Shown piece by piece: positions 28,295 to 40,627 of a stretch of 64,000 nt of DNA (positions within the stretch are counted from its first letter, which is position 1; every line of letters starts with the position of its first letter). Under the pieces are notes generated by a model. It worked only from the letters and a program-made list of their open reading frames with translations. It did no database searches and was not told the origin of the DNA. The translations under genes and the position numbers were made by a program. The DNA is from Parietichytrium sp. I65-24A. Taxonomy: Eukaryota; Sar; Bigyra; Thraustochytrida; Thraustochytriidae. The stretch lies in contig BLSF01000080.1 in NCBI GenBank assembly GCA_012862575.1, positions 1-64,000 of the forward strand, given 5' to 3'.

Positions 28295-30328
28295 ATGGTG
28301 CCCGAAATTGACGAGGATGACTTTGAACTGAATGGAGCAGACGAGGAGCAGGACATCGATCAGAAGGAGATCATGTCCAAGCAGATCACGCAGATGCTGC
28401 TGGACCGGGTGAAAGAGCTCGGATGCTCCTTCGAAGAGGCGAAGACGACCCTCGCCGCGGACGTGGATGCAGGCTCAAGCAACTCGACAGCTAATCTGAT
28501 GAAGGAGAGGTCATATAATCGCTCCAGACAATGGTCTGCATCGGAAGGCAAAAGCGAGGGTGCTTCATCCGCCTACACTCGGCAAACCCCGTCCAGACTC
28601 TTCACGGCGAAGCAGCTTTTCAGAGACCGTAGCATGTCAAATGTTAACAGCACTCCAAACCTGCTTGGGGTTAAAAGGGGTTCAGTGATGGATGGAAGAG
28701 ACGAAAGCGTCTTACTCCGAAATTCGTCCATGGTGGACCTTTCCAACCAAGGCAAGGCAGTGAAACGAGACAAGACACATGCTATATTTGCATCGGCCCA
28801 AGACCAGCGAGAGCGAGTCATGCAAGAGCGTGAGCTTCACAGCATAGCGGATCACAATGTTACGAGATCCATCGAGAATATCACATACCGTTACGGTTCG
28901 CAATCGCCCTTTGACACGGAGAGCAAGTTGATCATGGGATACGTCCACACCCATGCCAGCCTGCCCGAGCGTGAAAATTTGTCCAAGACATTTCGGCTGA
29001 TTGTTCGCTCCGAGTTAGTTGGGAAGGTATACGATCGGATGTTTTGGTATTGTCTTTGCATTCACTTTTTGAAAGCGAGAGGACAGACGGCGTTACGACT
29101 CACCAAAACTCAGGCCAAAGCAGAGCTTCTGAAGCAAGAACTCAAGGTCGTCGAAACCGACGCGTCGAGTCTGAGAGACGACCTCTCTGGGCTTTACATT
29201 CAACTGATACGAAAATTTCAAAAAATCTCCGAGTTGAAAAGGGATCTCATTCACAGGTACGTTCCGTTCGCGGTTGCGCATGGCATTTTGATCGCGCTCC
29301 GTTATCTGTGCCCTGGGTCGCGCCATCTCTACACAAAGACTATCCAAAGCCAAGTGTACGAGACATGCTGCGAGCTTCTGCTGGGAACGCAAGTGAGCAA
29401 GGTGTCTATAAACAAGATTCGCGATACCTTGTTTCCCTACGAGTCAAGATCTGCATTTGTGCAAGACGACGCAGTAGCTGGAGGAGTGGATGACGGAAAC
29501 CAGGAACACGGCCAGGACTTTGCTGACCTGGGCGACGGGGCCGAGGGAGTCAAGACAAGGACAGATGATTCCAATGAGCAAGATGACGCAGATGGGTGGG
29601 AAGACGTCTCTCAGAGCTCATTCTTCCAACCCCGCCAAAAGTTTGATTCAATGGGAGTCGGGTGCCTTCTCACGGACATGATTTCAAAGCATGGCCGGCG
29701 GAAGAAGGAGGACGAAGCGTTTCGCCCAGGCACAGCGCCTTCTCACATGCTCTATCGGACTGTTCCATCTTCCACTGCGCGTGTTGGTGGAACCGAAACA
29801 TTTCGCAACACCCCCTCCAGAGGTCATGTACTCGCAGCGATTAGTAAGAACTACGCCACAAAGAGGGAAGAGTACCAGGCATTTGTCCAGAAAAGCAGGG
29901 CTATTAGTCGTGCAAGAACGCAGACAGTAATTGCTCGCAGAGATGAGATTCTACGCTCTGGCGTCGCACAGGTGGAGCGATTCTGCCTGGATCTGGCTCA
30001 ACGAGACCCAAGGGTGAGTAAAGTCTACGAATCTGGGGAGGTCGACCAGGACTCTGCTTCAAAGTCGGAAGACATCAAGTTGCGCATAATGCGCACCAAG
30101 CGCTCGAAGGCTGCTGAGGGCACCATTAGCGGCGAGAGCAAAGGTGTGCGAAACAAACATCTGCAAGGAGAGCAAAAGCTGGATTGGCACGCAAATCTTG
30201 CGGTACATATTAACCTGCCCCCTGCTGATAGAATTATTGCAGCAACAGAGAAGATCGCAGCGTCTAAGCGATCCGACTGCCAAAAGCCCAGAACTAGGGC
30301 AAGGGTGCTCCTCTGCGGGCTGAAATGA
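28295..30328 (+). CDS. FAM227 / FWWh-domain-like protein
   Basis: The 677-residue protein has an acidic N-terminus, a long Ser-rich disordered region to about 200, and one conserved-looking helical domain at about 205-385. That domain contains YDRMFWYCLCIHF, a coiled stretch, RKFQKISELKRDLIHRY, and FAVAHGILIALRYLCPGSRHLY. The order of an aromatic FW motif, a ...ISxxY segment and an A-x-x-I-x-x-A-L...P-x-S segment resembles the FAM227 (FWWh) family of animals and protists, whose function is poorly known. Residues 395-500 are acidic and the C-terminus is basic and disordered. This assignment is by pattern only. Its stop lies 85 bp from the convergent COMMD4 gene. Confidence 0.6.
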   Translation: MVPEIDEDDFELNGADEEQDIDQKEIMSKQITQMLLDRVKELGCSFEEAKTTLAADVDAGSSNSTANLMKERSYNRSRQWSASEGKSEGASSAYTRQTPSRLFTAKQLFRDRSMSNVNSTPNLLGVKRGSVMDGRDESVLLRNSSMVDLSNQGKAVKRDKTHAIFASAQDQRERVMQERELHSIADHNVTRSIENITYRYGSQSPFDTESKLIMGYVHTHASLPERENLSKTFRLIVRSELVGKVYDRMFWYCLCIHFLKARGQTALRLTKTQAKAELLKQELKVVETDASSLRDDLSGLYIQLIRKFQKISELKRDLIHRYVPFAVAHGILIALRYLCPGSRHLYTKTIQSQVYETCCELLLGTQVSKVSINKIRDTLFPYESRSAFVQDDAVAGGVDDGNQEHGQDFADLGDGAEGVKTRTDDSNEQDDADGWEDVSQSSFFQPRQKFDSMGVGCLLTDMISKHGRRKKEDEAFRPGTAPSHMLYRTVPSSTARVGGTETFRNTPSRGHVLAAISKNYATKREEYQAFVQKSRAISRARTQTVIARRDEILRSGVAQVERFCLDLAQRDPRVSKVYESGEVDQDSASKSEDIKLRIMRTKRSKAAEGTISGESKGVRNKHLQGEQKLDWHANLAVHINLPPADRIIAATEKIAASKRSDCQKPRTRARVLLCGLK

Positions 30329-34493: not shown

Positions 34494-37400
34494 TTACGCA
34501 TAACAATCATCAATGATTGTGGCGTAGGTTGCAAAATTTGCGGGCTCCGGCAGGACGACGGTGAGCGATCTTCTGACTTTCTCGCTGTTTGCGGCTTTCT
34601 CCAAAATTGCTTCAAGTGACTCGAGTGTGATTTCATTGCGCCACAAAGGGCAATCTCCCTCCTTGGTCGTTTCGCCGGGAGCTCGAGCAAACATCAAATA
34701 CCAGTGAGGCGCTGGCGTGCTTGAAAATCTTGCGCCAAGGGTATGCTTGCAAAAATTCTTCACGTCAAGATCGTAAGGGAAGGAGAACGTGACCTTCAGT
34801 GTCCACCCGGCGTCAGAAATCGGAACCGGTTGTATCTTCGTCTTTGGCGTAAGGTCCGGCTGCTGTTGTCTCTCAACCATTACGTTCAAACCCTTGGAAG
34901 CGAAAAAAGTTGAAATTCGATGTAGTTCATCGCGAATTTCGTGGGCGAAGTCTCGAACTTCCTCAGCTGTCGACAGTGATTCCTCACTTATGCTCGCGTA
35001 TTTCTGCTTGTGGTAACAGAGAGGGGAGAATTTGGGGCTCAATAAACGCGCGAGCCAGCCAATTTCTGCCACACCTTGATATTGCGGTCTTTCGTGACCT
35101 TCGTTGACAAAGTGCAACGCAAGATCTTCTCTTCTCATCCACTTTTTGCCGTTGGAAAGTTGCGCAGATGCTTGTGGCAGGTTTACAGTGCGAGTTTCGA
35201 GGATATCGACGAGCTTGGCAAGCAACCTTTCGTCCGCAGCAGAGAGCTTCATACTTTCATCTTCCAAGGTGGACTGTACGTCATAGAACACCAGGGACAC
35301 GTCCTGGAGAGGAAAGTAAGAGACAATGTTGCCTTGATCCAGGCTGCCGATCGCCTCCACATCCTTCGCCAATCTCAGGAGGTGTAAGGGGTTGCCTGTA
35401 GAGGCAGCCCCCCCGCCAAACTTGGGAAACCCGCGCAGAGGTTTGCCGTTTTCACCAATTGCGCACCAATTGTATTTCATAGGCGGCTTTTCCTCGAAAG
35501 CCATAGTTTGCGAAGTGATACGCTTGGTCTCCCTTGACGTTGAAACTTGCAAGGAGAGCAACGTTCCGCTTGGAAAACCCTCGTGATACAAATCTTCTTC
35601 GTCCTCGGACTCCGTGTTCAAAGAATCGGTTTGCGGGGAAGGTCTGGGAGAGTTCAGGAAGGAGTCCATCTCTCGCTCGTTTACGGAGGCACCTAACGGT
35701 AGTTTGAGTTGTTTGCAGGCAAGGTGAACAGCTGCTGTCTTTGCCACTTCCGATATTTTTGGGCCAAGGTCTATGCCTTTTTTCAAAATGATTTTCAAAG
35801 GTTTGTTTCCCTTCATCTTGGCCTGAAGGTGTCTCACCACAGAATCGCGCCGGTAGCTCGAAAGGTTCAAGCCAACAGCGGACCGAAAGCAAGCAAAACT
35901 GGTCTCTGCAAGCTTTTTGCGAAGTGCTGAAGTTTCATCTGGATTTCCTAATGAAGTAATGAGGTCAATGTCGCCACAACCAGAAAAAGACACCACGTCG
36001 CCGTTTCTCGAGAGAACATAGTCCAGAGCCTCTTCAAATTTCTCAAGTGCGAACTTTGGGTCCTGGCCTTTGTCTTCAAGCTCGTCTTTCGTGTAGGCTT
36101 GATAGCCCTGAAGCTCCACATCCCTCCCAGTATTAATCGGCATCGCTTTGTGCCCATTCGTAACAAATTCACCTCGACTATCAACAATGCACCAGGCGAT
36201 CCCGACGAGAGAGCCATCTGATTCCCTCCCGGTACTTGAAAACGCCTGGTACGCGAAAATCAATGGATCTTTCAAGTTTTGGTTTCCATCTCCTATCACC
36301 GCCGCAGGAGTTGCGGACCCTTTTCCTTTGACGACATCTTCAGCTGCACCTTTTTTCTTCTTCGTCTTCTCTGAAGCGGTCTCTTCAGCTTTGGCGGCGG
36401 CGGCGGCGGCAGCAGCCTTTTTCTTCTCCTTGGGAGCAACCGCGGCTGCATCCGCCTTTTCATTGGCGGCGTCTGCTGCTTTTTTTTTCTCCTTTGCAGC
36501 CGCGGGAGCCTTTTTCTTTTCTCCCTCTGCCGCTTCGGCTGCCGAATTGTTCTCTTGGGAAGCGGCGGCAGCAGCCTTTTCCTCAGCTTCCCTTGCAGCA
36601 AGTGCCGCTTTCTTCTTCGCTTTATTCAAAGCAAAAGCCTCAGCTTTCTCCTTAGCCCTGGAGGACTTTTCTTTTTTTGGGGGGGTTACAGGTTCAGCAA
36701 CCGGAGCAGATTCAGCAACTGCTGCTACATGCCTTTCATACGCAAGTGCACCCTCGGCTCGTTTGACAGCCTTACTAGCAGCAGTTCCTTGCGCATCGAG
36801 GTACCGCTGGGTGACACTGCGGATTTCGGGATCGGAAATATAGGTTGGCACTCCGACGGTTTCAGGAAGCTCGTCACCCCGAAAACGATAGTTTATGGTG
36901 AAAGTGTCTGCGGAAAGGAAAGGCCAAGGGTATTGGTCAGGAAAAGCCAAGCGTGGCATGGTTCCTGAAGCCTTTAAGGTTTGCAAAATGAAGGCAGACA
37001 TGAGTGCGTCAGCTCCGCTATGATGCGCCATGTTCATGACCTCCACGGCCTCCGCCATCGAGCAGGGCAGGCCCAGATGCTGGAGTTCTCCACCGTCCCG
37101 CTGACGAAAATTCTTCTCAAAAACAGGGGCGAGGCGGCCTCTGTCCCCCCGGTAGCTGTCGCGAGCCTCTTTGGCTAGATATTGCGCAGTTTCGGTCCAC
37201 GCCTCCTTTTCACTGCTCGTCATTGACTCAGCGAGCCATTTGAAGTCTAACATGAGCAACGTGACGTCCCCTTCAAAATTGTGCCCCCCAACGATCCCAC
37301 CGCTTCTCCTAACCGCATCAATGTCCTCAAGAAGCAATGAATACAGCGGTTTGGCCGGTACTTTAAAGTTTGTCATTTCTTCGTCAGTGACGTCGGAGAA

Positions 37401-38663
37401 TTTTTTCCCCTCCTCGTTTGGTTCGTACGAGTCGCGATTTTCGAGGAGATAATGGTATGGATATCCGGGCAAAAGGTTGCCATCTTGGTCTAGCACCGCC
37501 CAGCCGATGGTGAGCGGGCGAATACCTTCTTCGGTGAAACCTTTAACAGACTTGGGGATCCGACCTGTGGTGTTTACGCGATTGTACTCTACATCGAAGG
37601 AAAGCGTCAGATCTTTCTTGTCCGTGAGGAGTGGTGTATGGTCTTCGATTGCGTCAAATCTCTGCGGCTGTTTCAGTTTGGCTAGAAATGAGGCACTTCC
37701 TTCAGCTGCACCAGCCTCCGCCGAACGTCCTATGGTTTCTTCCGGGAGTGTTTTGCACTCGTTTACTTGCACACTATGCTCCATAGCAAACTCCTTGACA
37801 TTTTCGGTGCTAGCCTCGGCCTCCTGGACCTGTGTGGCGCGCACGTTTTTCTCCGTTTCACTCTCTGCCGCTGACTCGATTTCCTTTGGCTTCTTCGCGC
37901 TTTCTTTGAACTCTGTCGAGATCGTTCTCGTCTGCAACAGGTACGCCGCTTTGAGTGCATCCACGCCAGTGTGCATCTCCACGTCGCAAGCCGCATTGAA
38001 TTCTTTGTCAGAGATCCCATTCCCCAACGATTCTAGCGGCCCACCCGGCGACCTGCTATGAAACGCATCAACGAACGCATTCTTCAAACTATCTCCACTG
38101 GACAGCACCAGCTGCCTCAATTTGCCATCACCGCCATTTCCAATAATCCCCACCGCCACTTCCATTGCCTCTTCCGCTCTCCAAGTACCCAGACAATTCT
38201 CCTCCGATGGTTCCAACAGCACCATGCCGCCATCCTGCACGTAGCTTCCCACTTTCCCGCCGCTCGCCCATGCTCTAGCTACGTCCTCCCGTAGCAATTC
38301 CGCAACATCACTAGCGAATTCCTTTCCGCCAGCCGCAACTTCCCGCCGCGGGTAACCGTCCAAAGCCTTTCCGTCCGCACCCAGCAACGCCCAGCCCACG
38401 GACACTGAGTGCGCGCCTTCCTCCCCCAAAGTGTCCTCGCCGCGGACACTTGGCGAGGACGCCACGCCCAACGTGAGTGGCCCGTCCGCAAACTCAGAGC
38501 CTTTTGTGGTGGTGGTGGTGGTAGTGAGTGTCCGCGCACGTACGCGCTCGATGGAGAATTTCTTGTCCGAGGACACATCGTACGTGGGACACTTGGATTG
38601 CAGGGGTGCGCGTAGCGAAACGCGTCGCAGCGAAACGCGCGCTAGTTGCCTGGACACGGACAT
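34494..38663 (-). CDS. Large organelle-targeted protein with four DEDDh-exonuclease-like repeats
   Basis: The single 1389-residue frame starts with an Arg/Ser-rich presequence (MSVSRQLARVSLRRVSLRAP) fitting a mitochondrion or plastid. A motif of the form GWAxLxxDGxxLxGYP recurs four times: 89-105, 387-402, 822-838 and 1064-1080. The second unit (about 350-565) looks like a complete DEDDh 3'-5' exonuclease: FDVEY (Asp357, Glu359), GGHNFEGD (Asp466) and HHSGADA (His547-x4-Asp552). The other three lack the D-x-E pair (GVA, YQA and QVS at the equivalent place) and look catalytically dead. Residues 665-790 are a Lys/Ala-rich low-complexity linker. The last 150 residues form a separate, unrecognised domain. 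The fold assignment is by motif and inference; substrate may be RNA or DNA. I know of no described protein with this layout. Confidence 0.62.
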   Translation of the reverse strand: MSVSRQLARVSLRRVSLRAPLQSKCPTYDVSSDKKFSIERVRARTLTTTTTTTKGSEFADGPLTLGVASSPSVRGEDTLGEEGAHSVSVGWALLGADGKALDGYPRREVAAGGKEFASDVAELLREDVARAWASGGKVGSYVQDGGMVLLEPSEENCLGTWRAEEAMEVAVGIIGNGGDGKLRQLVLSSGDSLKNAFVDAFHSRSPGGPLESLGNGISDKEFNAACDVEMHTGVDALKAAYLLQTRTISTEFKESAKKPKEIESAAESETEKNVRATQVQEAEASTENVKEFAMEHSVQVNECKTLPEETIGRSAEAGAAEGSASFLAKLKQPQRFDAIEDHTPLLTDKKDLTLSFDVEYNRVNTTGRIPKSVKGFTEEGIRPLTIGWAVLDQDGNLLPGYPYHYLLENRDSYEPNEEGKKFSDVTDEEMTNFKVPAKPLYSLLLEDIDAVRRSGGIVGGHNFEGDVTLLMLDFKWLAESMTSSEKEAWTETAQYLAKEARDSYRGDRGRLAPVFEKNFRQRDGGELQHLGLPCSMAEAVEVMNMAHHSGADALMSAFILQTLKASGTMPRLAFPDQYPWPFLSADTFTINYRFRGDELPETVGVPTYISDPEIRSVTQRYLDAQGTAASKAVKRAEGALAYERHVAAVAESAPVAEPVTPPKKEKSSRAKEKAEAFALNKAKKKAALAAREAEEKAAAAASQENNSAAEAAEGEKKKAPAAAKEKKKAADAANEKADAAAVAPKEKKKAAAAAAAAKAEETASEKTKKKKGAAEDVVKGKGSATPAAVIGDGNQNLKDPLIFAYQAFSSTGRESDGSLVGIAWCIVDSRGEFVTNGHKAMPINTGRDVELQGYQAYTKDELEDKGQDPKFALEKFEEALDYVLSRNGDVVSFSGCGDIDLITSLGNPDETSALRKKLAETSFACFRSAVGLNLSSYRRDSVVRHLQAKMKGNKPLKIILKKGIDLGPKISEVAKTAAVHLACKQLKLPLGASVNEREMDSFLNSPRPSPQTDSLNTESEDEEDLYHEGFPSGTLLSLQVSTSRETKRITSQTMAFEEKPPMKYNWCAIGENGKPLRGFPKFGGGAASTGNPLHLLRLAKDVEAIGSLDQGNIVSYFPLQDVSLVFYDVQSTLEDESMKLSAADERLLAKLVDILETRTVNLPQASAQLSNGKKWMRREDLALHFVNEGHERPQYQGVAEIGWLARLLSPKFSPLCYHKQKYASISEESLSTAEEVRDFAHEIRDELHRISTFFASKGLNVMVERQQQPDLTPKTKIQPVPISDAGWTLKVTFSFPYDLDVKNFCKHTLGARFSSTPAPHWYLMFARAPGETTKEGDCPLWRNEITLESLEAILEKAANSEKVRRSLTVVLPEPANFATYATIIDDCYA

Positions 38664-39202
38664 GAGTACCGACTAACCAGGAATGAGTAATGGGTAGCGG
38701 GGAACTAGGTGCGCGTACCGAGTTGTGCGTCCCAGCGAGAGCGAGTACTGTCTGATAGTACGCGAGGACACTCGCCTTTTTGCCAGTAGTCTTGTGTGGT
38801 AACCTAACCTAATGTTCGAGTAGTGTGACATAGCACTGAATAGCGCCCGCTTACGAGAACCGGTTCTTGGGTCTTTTGCGAGTGACGGCGGGTTCTTGAT
38901 GGGTTCTCAGTGGGTTCTCAGTGGGTTCTCGATGGGTTCTCGGTGGGTTCTCGGAGAGGCGCGCGAATCTCATCCGGTTGTCAAAAAAAAAAATGGCTCA
39001 GAAAGAGAGGAACTGCTGCTTCATAGAGGCCGTCGATGGAAGCGCTCTATATTTTTAAAGCGAATCTTGGTCTGTGAGTCTCGATGCGAGATGACAACAT
39101 TAGCATGCGAAGAATCGGGGACGTGCGAAGAGTATGAGGTATAATTTATTCCTGAAAGCTATGGTACAGTGGGTGCTTAAATATAGAATGACAAGGGAGC
39201 TT
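38664..39202. other. Spacer between exonuclease-like and PA-7TM genes
   Basis: Contains a minisatellite of about six copies of GGGTTCTCAGT/GATG at 38889-38956. No gene is seen. Confidence 0.55.
38889..38956. repeat. 11-12-bp minisatellite GGGTTCTCrGT
   Basis: Six near-perfect tandem units of GGGTTCT-CAGT, CGAT or CGGT type lie 230-290 bases upstream of the exonuclease-like gene's start. Confidence 0.85.
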
Positions 39203-40627
39203 TTACTTTTGCGCTGGTGGGGTGAAGAATCGAGTTTTCACGAAGGCTTGGGCTGCGAGCAGCGTGAAGAGGACCAGAAATGTCAATGCGCGCGGCCAGC
39301 GCTGGAAGAGAATTTGATCGAGAGACGAGAGCCCGATGGTCAGCGTTGTGGCAAACATGAGGATGGCAAGATGGATAACTTTCTCGGTGAGTCTGCGGAC
39401 ATCCTCTCTGACGTCTCGCGCCTTCCCGATGCCCGAAGCGTTGTTCTTCTTTTTCCCAGAGGTGACTTTGGAGCTCTCCGTTAACTTGATACTCATCTGG
39501 CTAGGGTTGGCGCTTTGGGAGACGCGCTCCAAATCCTCGGTAACGTAGTTGCTCACTTCGTACGTTTCTTGATCCGCTTGAGTGACGCGGGATGTCCCGG
39601 AAGCGGCTGATGTATACCTGTTGAGGGTGTATATCAGCCTCCGCCCGTAAACAAAGACTCCGACCGATGTGAGTCCTGAAAACAAAGCCAACCCCATTCC
39701 AGAGTAGAAACTAAGATTTGCGAGTCCAAGGAAAGCGGCGAGAGACGAGAGTATCAAGTCAAAGCCACAGAAGAGACAGGCCAGGAACAAGAGGATGTAT
39801 CTCTTGTTTTTGGTCAAGAAGGTCTTCTTGCTGAACCTGGAAGACATCATGTCGCTCCAGGCTAATATAAGGACAACACTGGCTACGATCTCCAGAGGAA
39901 CAGTCAAAGTGAGCAGAATTCTGCTCGGGGCATATGTAAATACTCCGCGACTCCAAAAAGGGTCGATGGCCACGAACATTAGTCGAATGAAACCGCATAC
40001 GGTTTCGATAAAAATCACGATCACCGCCGTGCGATATTGCCCGCGATCAAGGAGCGCCTTTCCGAAGATGAAAAGTCGCTGGACGCTGAAGCAGAAGGTG
40101 ACAAAGGAGATGATGCACAGTAAAACTTGAACCGCAATCCAAGGCCCAGCATAAAATGCTGTCCATTGATTTGGGCTCTCTTTCAAGTCCATGATGAGCG
40201 CCCCGGGGTTCTCATTCATAGCTTGGGCGAGCAGCTTTGTGTCCTCCTGGCCGACCTCAAACATAGGGTACCCACTTGCTGCATCCCACGCATCAAAATC
40301 GTGAATGACAAGAGCCTCGTGCCCAGCCTCCAAAGTAGAAAATACGAGTACTGCTGCTGCACCTGCTTGTTCCCCCATTTTGGCAACGCTTTCGTAGCCA
40401 CAGTGGAAACAAGTCGTGGAGTACGTGCTCAGAAACAGAGCAAAAGTACCCAAAGCATCAGTCGCATTTGCACCTGGCCCTTGACAGCCGTTGTCACACC
40501 AAGACTCGTCAAAGGCAACCAGTGTTGCGTTGGAAACGTCGTTGTTGCCAGTGCTGAATCCAAATACAGGTGTTTCGATCTCGAGTCCCGCGAGTCGCTC
40601 TGGCGACAATATCATGGAACGAACCAT
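39203..40627 (-). CDS. PA-domain seven-transmembrane protein
   Basis: The 474-residue frame starts with a lumenal or extracellular-type domain (about 12-155) resembling a protease-associated (PA) domain: a Cys-containing loop (CDNGCQGPGANATDALGTFALFLSTY), then AGAAAVLVFSTLEAG and YPMFEVGQEDTKLLAQAM. Seven hydrophobic spans follow, near 162-190, 200-225, 235-258, 275-300, 307-332, 425-450 and 455-472, with a long Ser/Lys-rich loop before helix 6. This is the topology of a sorting receptor or GPCR-like protein. No signal peptide precedes the ATG at 40625-40627. A short frame starting MVTLAAF upstream on the same strand, or an unseen exon, might supply one. No exact family is recognised. Confidence 0.75.
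   Translation of the reverse strand: MVRSMILSPERLAGLEIETPVFGFSTGNNDVSNATLVAFDESWCDNGCQGPGANATDALGTFALFLSTYSTTCFHCGYESVAKMGEQAGAAAVLVFSTLEAGHEALVIHDFDAWDAASGYPMFEVGQEDTKLLAQAMNENPGALIMDLKESPNQWTAFYAGPWIAVQVLLCIISFVTFCFSVQRLFIFGKALLDRGQYRTAVIVIFIETVCGFIRLMFVAIDPFWSRGVFTYAPSRILLTLTVPLEIVASVVLILAWSDMMSSRFSKKTFLTKNKRYILLFLACLFCGFDLILSSLAAFLGLANLSFYSGMGLALFSGLTSVGVFVYGRRLIYTLNRYTSAASGTSRVTQADQETYEVSNYVTEDLERVSQSANPSQMSIKLTESSKVTSGKKKNNASGIGKARDVREDVRRLTEKVIHLAILMFATTLTIGLSSLDQILFQRWPRALTFLVLFTLLAAQAFVKTRFFTPPAQK

Follow-up and report, generated by a model that had tools for sequence, protein, structure and literature searches.

A predicted thraustochytrid protein with four putative exonuclease-like units and one complete DEDDh-type residue set

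DEDDh exonucleases of the DnaQ type (PF00929, with ExoX, RNase T, epsilon and oligoribonuclease) carry an ordered set of catalytic residues, D-x-E, D and H-x4-D, and nucleic-acid-binding pseudo-exonucleases are known as single or paired domains. By analogy, PXL of PML-1 and Maelstrom offer precedents in which an exonuclease fold has taken on a different role. PXL is described in a preprint as having no activity and as binding G-rich RNA and DNA (PMC12934764), and a study of Maelstrom gives its residue set as EHHCHC, reports MAEL domains without exonuclease residues and describes an Entamoeba protein with two MAEL domains, the N-terminal one of which has lost the DnaQ-H residues (PMC2628886). 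Among the matches listed in a search of the open-access literature, covering titles and abstract openings, none describes a four-unit DEDDh protein, and the one match on multiple exonuclease domains concerns viral DNA polymerases. Here, we describe a gene on a 64,000-nucleotide stretch from Parietichytrium sp. I65-24A (contig BLSF01000080.1, positions 1 to 64,000; hereafter the window). At 34494-38663 on the minus strand lies an intact open reading frame (ORF) of 1389 residues, running from ATG to TAA with no internal stop, in which four exonuclease-like units (u1 to u4) can be recognized. Our favoured reading, to which we give a probability of about one half, is a divergent four-unit DEDDh chain that arose by internal duplication, in which unit 2 would trim nucleic acid and units 1, 3 and 4 would be non-cutting binders.

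The residues that carry this reading lie in unit 2, where D357, E359, D466, H547 and D552, named in an original prediction made from the letters alone, stand in the translation exactly as claimed, together with GHNFEG at 460. The ordered D-x-E, D, H-x4-D set of DEDDh exonucleases is found in unit 2 only; the prediction of one unit with the full ordered set and three without D-x-E is thus seen directly in the sequence. A strict pattern (hydrophobic-D-x-E, HN-xxx-D and H-x4-D, in order) occurs once in the protein, in unit 2, and in none of 2000 shuffles of the unit or 2000 of the whole protein, and a medium form of it occurs in 0/2000 and 2/2000, respectively. The bare letters D-x-E..D..H-x4-D are found in 99/2000 unit and 890/2000 whole-protein shuffles, with the first match in the real protein lying elsewhere (219-466), and are therefore little proof without the HN context and the spacing. 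There are two candidates for the base histidine, given that H547 has the x4 spacing and the alignment sets H548 under the invariant histidine. In the register of the cores described below, FDVEY of unit 2 is replaced by LGVAS in unit 1, FAYQA in unit 3 and LQVST in unit 4, and the place of D466 is taken by G146, D898 and D1121, respectively; motif III reads EMHTGVDA in unit 1 versus AHHSGADA in unit 2. The earlier description of units 1, 3 and 4 as dead copies holds for the loss of motif I, from which their inactivity would follow, but it is incomplete for units 3 and 4, which by this register may keep the motif-II aspartate.

These residues also bear on the possibility that all four units are non-catalytic, in which case the chain would be a pseudo-exonuclease scaffold for RNA, DNA or protein binding and the acidic residues of unit 2 would be relics or non-cutting metal holders. 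Three of the four units lack motif I, and inactive nucleic-acid-binding DEDDh folds do exist, reported examples being PXL of PML-1 (PMC12934764) and MAEL domains without exonuclease residues (PMC2628886). However, unit 2 retains all five residues in order and in their local context, which drift would be expected to erode, and we consider a wholly inactive chain unlikely.

Comparison with DEDDh profiles gives a second line of evidence for unit 2. We aligned 38 bacterial sequences, consisting of E. coli ExoX and domains taken from 37 of the 39 bacterial RNase_T loci, and built further alignments of 41 phage sequences and of 79 sequences. With hhalign, unit 2 scores 28.58 against the bacterial alignment, a value reached by 0/80 shuffles (maximum 24.9), and the register is correct, in that the GWA hairpin falls on the second strand while GHNFEGD aligns with HNa.fD; an earlier DEDDh alignment gave 25.3 (0/60 shuffles as high). 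In unfiltered hmmsearch, unit 2 reaches 4.5 bits with the bacterial and 9.9 bits with the 79-sequence profile, each matched by 0/500 shuffles and by none of 67 control frames (the other stop-to-stop frames of the window of at least 150 codons), and 3.0 bits with the phage profile (1/500 shuffles as high). Against the earlier alignment, units 1, 3 and 4 showed no signal, their scores being equalled by 60, 52 and 40 of 60 shuffles; for unit 3 against one epsilon-type protein 5/500 shuffles scored as high, the lowest figure when set beside its other four comparisons.

Structure prediction is compatible with the same assignment. When 28 DEDDh-type rows (from 24 of 49 phage loci and 4 of 80 ExoX loci) were added to the AlphaFold2 input for unit 2, the resulting model (model 2) had a mean predicted local distance difference test score (pLDDT) of 55.7 and a predicted template modelling score of 0.53. 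Foldseek returned 311 matches at E<=10, the best being chain 4gmj_F of the NOT1-CAF1 entry 4gmj (E 8e-3). Among the best 50 of the 311, ranks 1-20 and 41/50 in total are DEDDh enzymes or Maelstrom entries by title, the other nine being Argonaute, RuvC, SPT6, KEOPS and a mitochondrial elongation-factor entry, and template modelling scores by query length are at most 0.42.

Several results weigh against the DEDDh reading. Neither the Pfam, NCBIfam and PHROG libraries nor PDB sequences gave a significant match, and RNase_T (PF00929), searched with the HMMER filters on, matched neither the whole protein (E<=1) nor any of the four units (E<=10), so that its curated cut-off was not reached. Matches in two PDB sequence searches were taken as chance and set aside (two rows of one; eight of the other, seven being Kemp eliminases and the eighth another designed protein). 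The hhalign probabilities for unit 2 are low, at 17.8% with the bacterial and 22.9% with the 79-sequence alignment, and a joint profile of units 2 and 1 lowers the probability to 0.44%. Units 1, 3 and 4 alone obtain no score against the DEDDh profiles in unfiltered hmmsearch, and in plain pairwise comparison neither ExoX (262/500 shuffles as high) nor an epsilon-type protein (61/500) matches unit 2 significantly. With only rows of units 1 and 2, AlphaFold2 fails on unit 2 (pLDDT 33.4), and a PDB structure search with this unaided model lists no RNase H-like entry by title among the 50 matches listed. Model 2 itself has no Foldseek match at E<=0.001, and its fold is partly imposed, making the argument partly circular, because DEDDh rows were supplied. 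The profile-profile comparison proposed with the original prediction thus places unit 2 above all shuffles in the correct register, although at a probability of only 17.8-22.9%, and the predicted RNase H-like fold was modelled for unit 2 alone, where it appears with external rows at middling confidence and fails without them. Model 2 indicates compatibility with a DEDDh fold, not proof, and together with profile scores that are weak but controlled it supports the DEDDh assignment of unit 2, leaving the original prediction as a whole partly supported.

The low bit scores and the failed unaided model would also fit a hairpin that belongs to a different RNase H-like fold, such as a RuvC-like one, or to an alpha/beta fold of no relation, with the unit-2 set having arisen by chance in either case. 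Searching viral contigs for the DNA pattern of GWAxxDxDG gave 34 stretches, the best tblastn match of the four units to them having E 0.079. Nine ORFs among the 34 were read and labelled by reading: one (L002) has the DEDDh-exonuclease order, five are RuvC-like (three of them near-identical) and three are others, so a GWA-type hairpin is not confined to one RNase H-like kind; the five RuvC-like ORFs count in favour of another fold. By contrast, the motifs agree with those of DEDDh enzymes in order, spacing and register, and the strict pattern was absent from all 2000 shuffles, which makes a different fold decidedly unlikely in our view.

The phage ORF with the DEDDh order matches Pfam RNase_T at 16.2 bits, below the cut-off of 24, and one of its ten phage relatives is annotated as an exodeoxyribonuclease (Enterococcus phage H1); its motif order and this annotation count in favour of the DEDDh reading. 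The hairpin likeness of L002 to the thraustochytrid protein is selected, because it was found by a pattern built from this protein's motif. For the same reason we do not count as support the scores against an alignment of six hairpin-found phage proteins (unit 2 0/60, unit 1 2/60, unit 3 0/60 over 11 columns and unit 4 26/60 shuffles as high) or the pairwise scores against phage L161 (0/500 for u2, 2/500 for u1, 18/500 for u3 and 23/500 for u4). As an observation in its own right, L002:5311-6009 (minus), L036-L041 and L161-L209 form a divergent group of phage DEDDh-type exonucleases with a GWAVxDxxG-type hairpin, and a profile of six members matched no PDB sequence at E<=0.1; the L002 group was possibly drawn into its own profile during iterations, and E-values there are not independent. 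Scans of viral and genome contigs with the protein, its units or their alignment gave 7, 200, 3 and 15 pattern matches, none of them confirmed as a relative. The whole protein has no tblastn match to phages at E<=0.01, a GHNFEGDV pattern scan returned 0 stretches, and a CAF1-type motif scan returned 12 stretches, with no CAF1 by reading in 12/12 ORFs.

The evidence for four repeated units comes from the protein itself. The original prediction placed a GWAxLxxDGxxLxGYP motif at residues 89, 387, 822 and 1064, and the GWA-type motifs start at 90, 387, 821 (GIAWC) and 1065 (NWCAI), so the places are right within one residue; the consensus itself fits units 1 and 2 but only partly unit 4 (NWCAIGENGKPLRGFP) and poorly unit 3 (GIAWCIVDSRGEFVTNG). 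Local pairwise scores between units, each judged against 300 shuffles, are 137 for u1-u2 (shuffle maximum 55), 62 for u1-u4 (maximum 54) and 53 for u2-u4 (maximum 49), all with 0/300 shuffles as high, and units 1 and 2 are, on these sequence scores, clearly homologous. Pairwise likeness of unit 3 is not significant (268/300 for u1-u3, 85/300 for u2-u3 and 147/300 for u3-u4). We also searched with an ordered matrix of four short cores (the first strand, the GWA hairpin, the HN..D strand and the HxD helix), built from units 1 and 2 only. It recovers unit 4 with a score of 54.0 (0/400 shuffles as high) and unit 3 with 31.0 (2/400, or 0/400 when the two central cores are used), both at the places named earlier. 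Support is uneven across the cores, with 1.5 for the first and -1.0 for the last core of unit 3 and 0.5 for the HN core and 3.0 for the last core of unit 4; the end of unit 4 is uncertain, given that the core search sets its last core at 1211 and the alignment near 1240.

On this evidence one could hold that units 1 and 2 are the only true repeats and that units 3 and 4 are different domains which resemble them by chance, and the non-significant pairwise scores of unit 3, the lack of a DEDDh profile match for units 3 and 4 and their weak motif-III cores would agree with that. Against it stand the ordered-core scores (0/400 for unit 4 and at most 2/400 for unit 3, with the C-terminal tail as negative control) and the 0/300 scores of u1-u4 and u2-u4. 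Two repeats are accordingly quite improbable, and four units, with unit 3 the least sure, appear the better reading of the sequence. A fifth unit in the tail (1230-1389) was rejected, the ordered-core search giving nothing there (346, 133 and 178 of 400 shuffles as high), and so was a domain common to the segments behind units 2 and 4, where 204/500 shuffles reached the score of 25.

That the protein is a divergent deadenylase of the CAF1/PARN kind, carrying pseudo-units, is highly improbable: 4gmj_F, the best structure match of model 2, is by place and length probably CAF1 and was reached with no CAF1 row supplied, and motif III, H-x-x-G-x-D, resembles HQAGSD of CNOT7, but unit 2 scores only 33 against CNOT7 (194/500 shuffles as high), 36 against CNOT8 (84/500) and 0.09% in hhalign, there is no Pfam CAF1 match, and membership of PF04857 was rejected on sequence in a comparison limited to CNOT7 and CNOT8.

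In the favoured four-unit DEDDh reading, internal duplication would have given rise to four DnaQ/RNase H-like units. Unit 2 would hold two divalent metals through D357, E359, D466 and D552 and, with H547 (or H548) as the general base, could trim nucleic acid from the 3' end by a two-metal mechanism. Units 1, 3 and 4, having lost motif I, should not cut and, kept in one chain with the putatively active unit and an Ala/Lys linker, most likely hold substrate or partner; this Ala/Lys/Glu-rich segment (640-792) may act as a basic tether. The single frame, the repeated collinear cores, the residue set and the profile signal of unit 2 are what the data show directly, whereas the fold, most of all that of units 1, 3 and 4, and likewise activity, substrate, compartment and binding role are inferred. 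Targeting to an organelle, as first proposed, is weakly supported by composition: the first 45 residues contain 11 K/R versus 3 D/E and no hydrophobic segment, but the N-terminal helical moment is unremarkable, being equalled by 34% of other protein windows, and the segment is not clearly amphipathic. A secretory or plastid signal was rejected, there being no hydrophobic segment. If the reading is true, a chain that combines one live unit with three degenerate copies would permit a direct test of whether such dead copies turn into clamps for the substrate or into partners of the live unit, and the protein could reveal an unrecognized nucleic-acid processing factor of protists. A further step, which we put forward tentatively and rate as possible but doubtful, is that it represents a new eukaryotic family in which one live DEDDh unit is covalently joined to three binding units derived from exonucleases, perhaps for mitochondrial RNA or DNA maintenance, and so brings its own pseudo-enzyme clamp.

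Table 1 Positions in the window of the gene and of the proposed features of its product
Feature	Position	Strand	Basis
Single ORF with four exonuclease-like units	34494..38663	-	ORF reading, 1389 aa
Basic N-terminus, residues 1-52, possible mitochondrial presequence	38508..38663	-	Composition
Unit 1, approximately residues 61-245; D-x-E absent, G146 in the position of the motif-II Asp, motif III reading EMHTGVDA	37929..38483	-	Alignment and core register
Unit 2, approximately residues 352-563; all DEDDh-type residues present	36975..37610	-	Pattern, profile, model
Motif I of unit 2, D357-V-E359	37587..37595	-	Alignment to DEDDh enzymes, which have D-T-E here
Motif II of unit 2, H461-N-F-E-G-D466	37266..37283	-	Pattern and profile alignments
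Motif III of unit 2, H547-H-S-G-A-D552; H548 as alternative base	37008..37025	-	Alignment
Linker rich in Ala, Lys and Glu (A 35%, K 20%, E 13%), residues 640-792	36288..36746	-	Composition
Unit 3, about residues 799-985, least sure; D898 at the motif-II place, no D-x-E; end uncertain (motif-III core -1.0)	35709..36269	-	Ordered cores, <=2/400 shuffles; pairwise not significant
Unit 4, approximately residues 1034-1250; D-x-E absent, D1121 in the motif-II position	34914..35564	-	Pairwise scores, ordered cores 0/400
C-terminal region, residues 1257-1389, no fifth-unit sign	34497..34895	-	Core search negative 1230-1389; no Pfam match 1240-1389

The window is apparently eukaryotic nuclear, intron-poor DNA, because neighbouring frames match the FWWh, CRAL-TRIO, MBOAT, PheRS beta, RGS and WD40 families and several look complete within one frame; in the window we found no tRNA and no Rfam family at gathering score. 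The FWWh match (PF14922, a Pfam family of unknown function; 2.5e-9) lies in a 677-aa frame at 28295-30328 (+). Upstream of the gene, a 474-aa frame at 39203-40627 (-) has a weak PA-domain match, below the cut-off, and several hydrophobic stretches by eye. The segment 38664-38960 before the start codon contains a short basic upstream frame and a tandem repeat of period 11 at 38886-38954.

Compared with known systems, unit 2 carries D-x-E, HN..D and H-x4-D in the same order and at the same spacing as DnaQ-type DEDDh exonucleases, and it shares with them the register of the profile alignment and the predicted strand and helix order of model 2, whereas this protein has no Pfam match, four units per chain and three units without D-x-E. 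The L002-type phage exonucleases have the same order of D-T-E, GWAVxDxxG-type hairpin, HN..FD and H-x-G-L-x-D-V, but are about 210 aa long with one unit each, and their hairpin likeness was selected by the search. CAF1/POP2 (PF04857) shares H-x-x-G-x-D at motif III and provides the best structure match of model 2, although its sequence likeness to unit 2 is not above shuffles. Maelstrom domains and PXL of PML-1 are likewise exonuclease folds with the active site lost or switched; no sequence search links them to this protein, Maelstrom entries are weak structure matches to model 2 only, and here there are four units, one with a complete set. The fold is already known, and it is the four-unit array that is unusual.

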